The position numbers and the translations under genes were made by a program. From positions 79,989 to 143,988 of the forward strand of contig JAGWHF010000003.1 of the NCBI GenBank assembly GCA_028866895.1: a DNA stretch of 64,000 bases, in the 5' to 3' direction. Numbering within the stretch: the stretch's first letter is position 1; every line of letters starts with the position of its first letter. Under the pieces are notes generated by a model. The model made no database searches and was not told the DNA's origin. It was given only the letters and a program-made list of their open reading frames with translations. Positions 40,471 to 43,086 of the stretch are shown in pieces. Origin of the DNA: Nitrososphaerota archaeon (GTDB lineage: Archaea; Thermoproteota; Nitrososphaeria; Nitrososphaerales; Nitrosopumilaceae).

Positions 40471-41112
40471 TTAGTGTCCATGTTGCCATCTCGCATGATC
40501 ACCAACTCCTGGATTTTGTTGTCCCAATGGCGTGTGTTGTTCCTGATTCTGCTTTTGTAATTCTCTTTGCTGTTCCTGTTTCTGTTGCTGCTGCTGTTGC
40601 TGATTCTGCTTTTGTAATTCTCTTTGCTGTTCCTGTTTCTGGTGCTGTTGCTGATTCTGCTTTTGTAATTCTCTTTGCTGTTCCTGATTCTGCTGCTGTT
40701 GCTGCTGCTGTTGCTGCTGCTGTTGCTGTTCCTGATTCTGCTGCTGTTGCTGCTGTTGCTGATTCTGCTGCTGCTGTTGCTGATTCTGCTGTTGCTGTTG
40801 CTGCTGCTGTTGTTGCTGCTGTTGCTGTTCCTGATTCTGCTGTTGCTGCTGTTGCTGTTCCTGATTCTGCTGCTGTTGCTGTTGCTGCTGCTGTTGTTGC
40901 TGCTGCAAATTGTACTCTGCCTGCCACGAATCCTGCATTGTGGGTTTCACCTCTGCCTCATCAATAGGATGAATGTACGATGATTTGCCCTGTTGATTGA
41001 GGAAGCCTTTGCTTGCCACAGCATAGGCCGGCTGAACGGCCAGTCCGGTCTCGGCAACAATCACCATCAATAGAATAGAGGCTGCCAAGAATTTGAGGGA
41101 TCCGCTCTTCAT
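40471..41112 (-). CDS. secreted poly-glutamine protein
   Basis: This 213-aa protein has a clear signal peptide (S-G-S-L-K-F-L-A-A-S-I-L-L-M-V-I-V-A, cleavage near A-Y-A, about residue 31). A short conserved-looking segment follows (S-S-Y-I-H-P-I-D-E-A-E-V). Then come about 125 residues dominated by Gln runs broken by Asn and Glu (Q-N-Q-E-Q), and three imperfect copies of a Q-R-E-L-Q-K-Q-N unit. It ends with a short H/G-rich tail. There is no anchor, so it should be released or held in the surface layer. Poly-Q tracts tend to form coiled coils or aggregates; a structural surface role is inference. The next gene upstream is another exported protein. Confidence 0.7.
   Translation of the reverse strand: MKSGSLKFLAASILLMVIVAETGLAVQPAYAVASKGFLNQQGKSSYIHPIDEAEVKPTMQDSWQAEYNLQQQQQQQQQQQQQNQEQQQQQQQNQEQQQQQQQQQQQQQQNQQQQQQNQQQQQQQQNQEQQQQQQQQQQQQQNQEQQRELQKQNQQQHQKQEQQRELQKQNQQQQQQQKQEQQRELQKQNQEQHTPLGQQNPGVGDHARWQHGH
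40545..40914 (-). repeat. CAG/CAA triplet repeat and longer unit repeats
   Basis: Within the poly-Q gene, the coding strand has long mixed CAG/CAA runs between about 40680 and 40914. A longer unit containing GATTCTGCTTTTGTAATTCT (plus-strand reading) starts at 40545, 40602 and 40653. The mixture of CAG and CAA codons may limit slippage. Tract length is likely to vary between strains. Confidence 0.8.
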
Positions 41113-41230: not shown

Positions 41231-42157
41231 TCACATGCAGACAGAATTGTTGATACATGTCCTTATAGTTTCAGGAAATTGTGAATTCTCAAGATCAACA
41301 TTTTTCAAATTTGCGTCCTTCAAGTCAACATTAAACAAGACATCGTTAGTCAGTATCGCGTTTGTCAAATCACTCTTTTCAAATTTTGTACTCCCAAATT
41401 TTGCAAAATTGAAATTTGCGTCTACCAATGTTGAATGAGAGAGGTTAGACCCAACTAAATCTGCATAGGAGAGATTATCAGCACTCAGGTTATCATGAGA
41501 TAAGTTAGATTGAGTCAAATTTGCATTGAAAAAGTTCGTCCCAGAAATGTCCACGTAGTCAACATTCGTTCCACCCATATTTGCATCAAAGAAATTAACG
41601 TTTGCCATCTTTGCGTCAGTAAGGTTTGATCCTGTAAGATCAACGTAATTCATGTTAGCACCCGACAAATCTGCCTTGCTGAGGTTGCAATATTTTACAT
41701 CAGCATATGAAAAATCTGCAAATGCCATCACAAGGTGCGACATGTCCTGGCCTTCAAGGTTGGCCCCTGAAAGAGACGACCCGTAAAAGGTTGCTCCGTG
41801 AAGGTTTGCTCCTTGTAGGTCGGTCCCGTATAGTTTTGCATTGGAAAGATCTGCCCCAGAAAGGTTTGCCCCTTGCAAGTCAGACCCTGAAAGGTTCACT
41901 CCGCGGAGGTCAGACCCCCTCAAGTCGGCGCCCTTCAGATCTGCATATGCCAAGTTGGAACCTGCCAGGTTTGCCCCTACAAGATATTTTCCCGCCATTT
42001 CACATTCGTGCCAGTCGATTCCGGGCTGGGCTGACACATAGCAATTTGTCAATCCGCCAGAGGCAGCCCATGCACCATGTAGAAAATACCCATTAGTAAG
42101 AAGCATTGCCACTACCAACAAACCAAGGCAGACTGTTCCGCGCAGAAAACTTCCCAT
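41231..42157 (-). CDS. exported pentapeptide-repeat protein
   Basis: This 308-aa protein begins with a signal peptide or N-terminal anchor (V-C-L-G-L-L-V-V-A-M-L-L). From about residue 60 to 300 it is an almost continuous series of A-(D/N)-L-x-x pentapeptides, which form a right-handed quadrilateral beta-helix. Two cysteines near the N-terminus (N-C-Y and H-E-C-E) and a pair at the end (R-T-C-I-N-N-S-V-C) may form capping disulfides outside the cell. The function is unknown. A TATA-like TTAATACATTA lies about 25 nt upstream on the minus strand. Confidence 0.85.
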   Translation of the reverse strand: MGSFLRGTVCLGLLVVAMLLTNGYFLHGAWAASGGLTNCYVSAQPGIDWHECEMAGKYLVGANLAGSNLAYADLKGADLRGSDLRGVNLSGSDLQGANLSGADLSNAKLYGTDLQGANLHGATFYGSSLSGANLEGQDMSHLVMAFADFSYADVKYCNLSKADLSGANMNYVDLTGSNLTDAKMANVNFFDANMGGTNVDYVDISGTNFFNANLTQSNLSHDNLSADNLSYADLVGSNLSHSTLVDANFNFAKFGSTKFEKSDLTNAILTNDVLFNVDLKDANLKNVDLENSQFPETIRTCINNSVCM

Positions 42158-42361: not shown

Positions 42362-42465
42362 AGCCCGATAGTCTAGTGGCCAAACAATTTTTGGGCTAGG
42401 GATTCCAGGCTCTGGATCTTACGAGAGGAAACCTGGAGACGGCAGTTCGAATCTGCCTCGGGCTA
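42362..42465 (+). tRNA. tRNA-Gln(CUG) with two introns
   Basis: The acceptor stem is AGCCCGA (42362-42368) paired with TCGGGCT (42458-42464), with discriminator A. The T-arm is GGCAG-TTCGAAT-CTGCC (42441-42457). The anticodon stem CCAGG/CCTGG encloses CTCTGG plus an insertion; a loop of CTCTGGA gives anticodon CUG. About 15 nt (near 42416-42430) must be removed after position 37, the canonical intron site. The D-stem GTCT/GGAT encloses 25 nt instead of about 9, so a second insertion of about 16 nt (near 42384-42399) lies in the D-loop. Its flanks CCAAA/TTTGG can pair as in a bulge-helix-bulge site. Removing both leaves 73 nt. Exact splice points are inferred by length. Confidence 0.85.
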
Positions 42466-42486: not shown

Positions 42487-43086
42487 CTATCGCGAGGCCA
42501 TTGCTATTCTTTCTAATTCGTTCTTCTTCTTGACAGATGGTGCCGACATGTCGTTTGAGGCAGCAAGAATCAGTTGTTCTGCCAAGTTCTCCTCTATAGC
42601 CTTCGGATTTGAAAAAGAGGCATCGCGTACACCCTCTGCAATAAACCGCAATGCAAGGTCGACTCGCCTTAGAGGCGCCACGTCTACTGACACGTGATAA
42701 ACGGTACCACCGTAGACAATCCTCGTCGTGTCCTCGTTTGGAGCAGAGTTTTCCACTGCCCTAATCAATACCTCCACAGGGTTCTTTCCTGTCTTGAGAG
42801 AAATGATTTCGAGCGCTGCCCTGACCGTATTTATAGCATGATTTTTCTTGCCACCCATCCTTCCCGTGTTCTTTGCGTATTTTTTTCCAAAATGCAAAAT
42901 TTTGTTAACAAGTCTTTCCACGATGTTCACCTCAGCCTTGTTAAACCTCTTCAGTGCAGAGCGCCCAAAGGACATGGGGATTATCTCCTTCTTTAGAGAT
43001 ATGACGTTCTTCAAACCCGGATCCTTTATCTCAACCTTGGATGTGTCCCACTTCCTAAAAAGCAACAGGTTCTGTGTCTCTGTCAT
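42487..43086 (-). CDS. rps7: ribosomal protein uS7
   Basis: This 199-aa small-subunit head protein binds the 3' domain of 16S rRNA. Recognisable parts are K-N-T-G-R-M-G-G-K-K, N-P-V-E-V-L-I-R-A-V-E-N-S-A-P and the S-V-D-V-A-P-L-R-R-V-D segment. It is the last gene of the rpo/ribosomal operon here. EF-2 or EF-1alpha, which often follow in other archaea, are absent; instead the convergent tRNA-Gln begins within 25 bp. Confidence 0.95.
   Translation of the reverse strand: MTETQNLLLFRKWDTSKVEIKDPGLKNVISLKKEIIPMSFGRSALKRFNKAEVNIVERLVNKILHFGKKYAKNTGRMGGKKNHAINTVRAALEIISLKTGKNPVEVLIRAVENSAPNEDTTRIVYGGTVYHVSVDVAPLRRVDLALRFIAEGVRDASFSNPKAIEENLAEQLILAASNDMSAPSVKKKNELERIAMASR

Follow-up and report, generated by a model that had tools for sequence, protein, structure and literature searches.

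A tRNA-Gln(CUG) gene interrupted at two positions

The window, by which we mean the whole 64,000-nt stretch of DNA analyzed here, belongs to a Nitrosotalea-type genome (G000; 2.26 Mb, 99.7% complete) of a soil-type ammonia-oxidising archaeon. On its forward strand, positions 42362–42465 are occupied by a 104-nt gene for tRNA-Gln(CUG). A cmscan search of the local stretch placed RF00005 exactly over this interval (43.8 bits, E 3e-8), and the alignment contains two insert blocks, one of 20 nt in the D-loop and one of 18 nt in the anticodon loop. The acceptor stem is AGCCCGA/TCGGGCT, the discriminator A is at 42465 and CCA is not encoded. The ends of the gene given in the original prediction are thus exact, as judged from the acceptor stem, the discriminator and the RF00005 span.

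Exon 1 (42362–42383) comprises the 5′ acceptor strand, the 5′ strand of the D-stem and the D-loop up to nucleotide 21. It reads AGCCCGA TA GTCT AGTGGCCAA, with its extent defined by RF00005 and by intronless orthologues (GGTCAA/GGAT). The 16-nt D-loop intron, ACAATTTTTGGGCTAG (42384–42399), follows at position 21/22; it is delineated by an empty site at the orthologous locus, covariation and length variation. Exon 2 (42400–42415; RF00005 and ARAGORN), GGAT T CCAGG CTCTGG, provides the 3′ strand of the D-stem (GGAU), nucleotide 26, the 5′ strand of the anticodon stem and CUCUGG, in which the CUG anticodon lies at 42412–42414. Next comes the 15-nt canonical intron at 37/38, ATCTTACGAGAGGAA (42416–42430), placed by folding and comparison of relatives. 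Exon 3 (42431–42465; RF00005 and ARAGORN), A CCTGG AGAC GGCAG TTCGAAT CTGCC TCGGGCT A, supplies A38, the 3′ strand of the anticodon stem, the variable loop, the T-arm, the 3′ acceptor strand and the discriminator. All these features are on the forward strand. The convergent neighbor taken from the ORF list, rps7 (ribosomal protein S7; 42487–43086, reverse strand), was named by its own sequence and by its neighbors rps12, nusA, rpl30e and rpoA, and it served as our synteny anchor.

Removal of both inserts yields a normal 73-nt tRNA cloverleaf with a CUG anticodon. The original prediction, which proposed about 16 nt in the D-loop and about 15 nt after position 37, was therefore borne out with 16 nt after nucleotide 21 and 15 nt after nucleotide 37. 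This two-intron reading is backed by the empty site, a covarying bulge–helix–bulge (BHB) motif, variable intron length and a two-gene splicing endonuclease. The whole-genome Rfam search found no CUG-type tRNA-Gln other than the window copy, and the sole other tRNA-Gln found in the genome, L012, is intronless and has the anticodon UUG.

A standard finder reports no tRNA-Gln(CUG) here because the gene carries two introns. ARAGORN in default mode found no tRNA in the window; with introns allowed, it miscalled the locus as tRNA-Val(TAC), and it gave tRNA-Gln(ctg) only after both inserts had been removed. The earlier warning that automatic predictors may miss the gene thus holds for default ARAGORN and for the whole-window Rfam scan, which also missed it, but not for the genome-wide Rfam search, which detected it. 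tRNAscan-SE 2.0 may well find it too.

Structure and covariation of the intron sites

In the window, the D-loop BHB motif reads GGCC AA^A CAA UUU UUG GGCU AG^G. The central helix pairs GGCC (42378–42381) with GGCU (42394–42397), and the inner hairpin pairs CAA (42385–42387) with UUG (42391–42393); both helices are defined by comparison of relatives and covariation. The motif thus has a 4-bp central helix and two 3-nt bulges on opposite strands at the exon–intron borders. Among relatives, the insert varies both in sequence and in length (11–25 nt). What is kept is the architecture: exon GGYC, bulge AA^N, a variable inner hairpin, intron GRYY, a 2-nt bulge half and the D-stem GGAU. For example, the motif is GGCC AA^U CGGGCGC..GCGCCCG GGCC AG^G in L086 and GGUC AA^U UGGU..ACCA GAUC AA^G in L108. 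Even within Nitrosotalea, two sequences (L168 and L189) have GGUC..GAUC instead of GGCC..GGYU. The orthologue L131 of Ca. Nitrosotalea devanaterra, a member of the genus to which G000 belongs, contains both introns as well.

Across 27 distinct sequences, 97% of the BHB pair cells are standard, and 28 cells carry two-sided changes, compared with 8.6 +/- 3.4 in shuffles. Sliding the partner by 1–3 columns leaves at most 7 such changes. The central helix is complete (4/4 bp) in all parsed family sequences with the intron, except for the short-intron genomes L091 and L094 (11 nt), where it has only 3 bp. The empty site fixes the mature sequence. Short repeats lie on both sides of the insert (in many relatives TCAA...TCAA), and we therefore relied on the BHB rule to position the exact cut.

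In thermodynamic folding of the sequence from the window, the BHB helix has a pair probability of 0.25–0.37 and is not part of the minimum-energy fold; a register-shifted CCAAA/UUUGG hairpin is preferred. In most, though not all, of the folded intron-bearing relatives, the probability of the BHB helix is about 0.6 or higher. The minimum-energy fold contains a stable hairpin inside the D-loop, which speaks for a different reading: the mature tRNA could keep the insert as a hairpin that enlarges its D-loop, with the canonical intron alone being spliced. Against this reading, it is the BHB bulge lengths and helix that are kept, while the loop is free to vary.

The canonical intron is 15 nt long in most relatives, and its relaxed BHB has a CUCU:AGAG helix. 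Over the relatives, this helix (CUCU:AGNG) is imperfect: 83% of its cells are paired, the second pair is broken in 12 of 27 sequences and the 3′ bulge has 4 nt. The site must therefore be cut as a relaxed motif. The flanking anticodon stem is paired in 100% of cells and shows compensatory changes between relatives.

An empty site at the orthologous locus

A BLAST search with the 104-nt gene gave matches in 121 of 151 genomes of the family. In most genera, the gene is about 100–110 nt long. In most of the genus g11 (Nitrosopumilus) it has 88–91 nt and lacks the D-loop insert alone (GTCT AG[CT]GGTCAA/GGAT), so that the D-loop encoded at the same locus has the standard 9 nt. The gene is convergent with rps7 at 105 intron-bearing and 27 intronless loci, counts that include some genomes twice. 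Both forms of the gene thus occupy the same place beside rps7, and the orthologous locus of the intronless genomes is a true empty site. The D-loop intron persists in a few g11 genomes (L093/G149, L097/G124, L100/G146, L388/G281 and L389/G290), and the loss is therefore to be placed within or near g11.

At 10 further intronless loci, tRNA-Gln is encoded on the same strand as rps7 and downstream of it. These loci, from a subset of Nitrosopumilus-type genomes (L116, L136, L138, L149, L178, L183, L187, L190, L242 and L243), are arranged as if the gene had been inverted in place. In Nitrosotalea sp. t3.48 (L079/L185), tRNA-Gln(CUG) has lost most of its anticodon arm: about 15 nt are deleted between GGATCT repeats, which is either an assembly error or a real lesion.

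Could the window locus be a decaying pseudogene, with CAG being read by tRNA-Gln(UUG)? The UUG isoacceptor L012 could in principle read CAG, and the Nitrosotalea MAG just described has lost the anticodon arm of its gene. However, all exon stems of the window gene pair, the anticodon stem shows compensatory changes between relatives, and the gene is kept beside rps7 in more than 130 relatives. On these grounds we rejected the pseudogene as extremely improbable.

Distribution of the intron across Nitrososphaeria

A covariance model built from these sequences recovered tRNA-Gln across the order and the class. In what follows, families are denoted by anonymous labels (f-numbers), and names ending in "-like" are presumptive, being based on the size and gene content of the genomes. 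The 21/22 intron with the GGYC:GRYY helix is present in families f4, f6, f7, f11, f12 and f13 of the order and also in f16 of another order (L380 and L381). Families f2 and f3, one genome of f9 and a tRNA-Gln(UUG) of f10 instead carry an intron at 24/25, three nucleotides downstream. The helix of the latter intron is CAAG:CUUG in L258, L259, L270 and L271 and imperfect in L260. A third intron, at 10/11, occurs in several f7 (Nitrososphaera-like) genera and in L260/L261, with the BHB motif CGGU CG^A ... GCCG AA^U (L292–L297). Some f9 genomes have a tRNA-Gln(CUG) without any intron, and the tRNA-Gln of f18–f20 has no D-loop intron.

The shifted site bears on whether the mature tRNA keeps the D-loop insert. 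If it did, it would be hard to explain why several other families carry an equivalent intron three nucleotides downstream. Together with the covarying BHB motif and the standard D-loop of the empty-site orthologues, this led us to reject the retained hairpin, which we consider highly improbable.

The genus g19 (Nitrosopelagicus-like) has a different set of genes. Its genomes (G019/G036 and 29 further; loci L284, L285, L288, L290 and L334–L363) contain two intronless UUG-type tRNA-Gln genes with the anticodon loops CCTTGGA and CCCTGGA. This pattern was matched in 31 of 31 genomes, with the loops read in 30. Position 33 is C33 in both genes; U33 is nearly universal in tRNAs. In this genus, a second copy of the UUG gene seems to have taken the place of the intron-bearing CUG gene.

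Splicing machinery and proposed processing

The genome encodes two PF01974 (splicing endonuclease) proteins. The nearest match of the EndA alpha subunit is the catalytic subunit of Aeropyrum pernix EndA (3p1z_B, E 6.5e-46); the GPGIDHAP and VRK motifs are aligned, and KP is found in the region of the crenarchaeal-specific loop. The second protein is a divergent homologue, in which the sequence read lacks the GPGIDHAP histidine, as expected of a structural beta subunit, and it is probably just that. The enzyme probably assembles as (alpha-beta)2. The genome thus encodes what appears to be one of the broad-specificity forms of EndA, (alpha-beta)2 or epsilon2, alongside the introns. Enzymes of the (alpha-beta)2 type, including those of Thaumarchaeota, have been linked to non-canonical introns (PMC4090602; PMC12397907).

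Taken together, the window gene is almost certainly a functional single-copy tRNA-Gln(CUG) whose precursor has BHB introns at 21/22 and 37/38; excision of both by EndA, followed by ligation of the exons, is the most likely route to the mature tRNA. The same high confidence extends, jointly, to the D-loop intron being old in Nitrososphaeria and precisely lost in part of Nitrosopumilus; such statements of gain and loss rest on comparison of loci and imply no particular number of events. Once the gene is transcribed, the two-gene EndA would cleave both bulges of the D-loop motif behind their second nucleotide (AA^A and AG^G); at the canonical site, the cuts would fall at GG^A and A^A38. Ligation of the exons, presumably by a ligase of the RtcB type, would give a 73-nt tRNA reading CAG, and the introns would be expected to circularize.

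A stronger proposition is that the D-loop intron is an ancient and selectively maintained intron of Nitrososphaeria. The intron might, for example, time or guide modification of the D-arm or the anticodon, or regulate the supply of a single-copy tRNA. The 21/22 and 24/25 introns would then represent alternative solutions to the same need, and both the loss in Nitrosopumilus and the gene replacement in the Nitrosopelagicus-like genus would reflect release from it. We consider selective maintenance unlikely.

Relation to known archaeal tRNA introns

The D-loop intron of tRNA-Gln(CUG) is of a kind already known; it is ordinary in kind, and its comparative record is unusually clear. Our literature searches turned up no paper that describes it, and the 21/22 intron of tRNA-Gln may already be catalogued in GtRNAdb. 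Archaeal intron sites that have been listed include 20/21, 22/23, 25/26 and others (PMC4090602), and the paper on the N. devanaterra genome notes putative introns in various tRNAs but gives no particulars (PMC4836417). The original prediction regarded two introns in one tRNA, one of them at a non-canonical site, as best known from Thermoproteota. Such introns are not confined there: tRNAscan-SE 2.0, which has a dedicated Thaumarchaeota intron model, reported 107 non-canonical introns in Thaumarchaeota genomes (PMC8450103). Like those, the D-loop intron is a BHB intron located off 37/38 in a pre-tRNA of the same phylum, and we see no essential difference between them.

The D-loop site was rightly called notable but is not unprecedented, as D-arm introns have been experimentally confirmed in Sulfolobus tokodaii (tRNA-Glu) and A. 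pernix (tRNA-Thr), and EndA cleavage of the former has been demonstrated in vitro (PMC4307357). These too are D-arm introns at a BHB-like motif. However, they belong to other isoacceptors in another phylum, whereas tRNA-Gln(CUG) adds a canonical intron and has a D-loop intron conserved across an order. Multi-intron tRNAs of Thermoproteales likewise have two or three introns per gene, but many of those introns are recent and have spread between tRNAs (PMC4090602; PMC4033280). In tRNA-Gln(CUG), by contrast, a single site in a single isoacceptor is occupied through much of the order, apart from losses and a shift of the site by 3 nt. What is added to the known picture is this wide conservation, in the majority of related genera and outside the order, the shifted 24/25 site of several other families, the third, 10/11 intron of the Nitrososphaera type and the loss elsewhere.

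For the window gene, the intron borders are now given to the base. The clade provides a natural series for one tRNA gene, with three, two, one or no introns and a shifted site, which is useful for testing the gain, movement and loss of archaeal tRNA introns as well as the tolerance of a mesophilic two-gene EndA.

Other tRNAs and neighboring ORFs

tRNA-Arg(CCU) (L030/L304; G000:C8:31650-31742) has a D-loop insert as well, GCGCAG^AGTCAAAGCGACGCGAA..CATGGACAGCGC. Nitrosotalea sequences retain its GUC..GAC hairpin around a loop that varies, and matches across the family are of about equal length; from these sequence features, it is probably a second D-loop intron, near 15/16. A CAU-anticodon tRNA (L034; G000:C1:9637-9729) has an apparent intron near 30/31, and tRNA-Glu(UUC) (L040; G000:C3:20908-20971) is interrupted in the T-arm. 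We did not recognize tRNAs for Asp, Trp, Lys(UUU) and others in the set of RF00005 hits of the genome, which makes further intron-split genes likely.

Two ORFs on the reverse strand lie on the other side of the tRNA gene from rps7. The ORF at 41231–42157 (308 aa), immediately upstream of tRNA-Gln(CUG) and divergent from it, begins with a signal-like sequence and contains repeats of the pentapeptide type (A[DN]LxG). The ORF at 40471–41112 (213 aa), about 1.2 kb from the tRNA gene, begins with what resembles a secretion signal and contains a long repeat rich in glutamine (Q/NQEQ runs).
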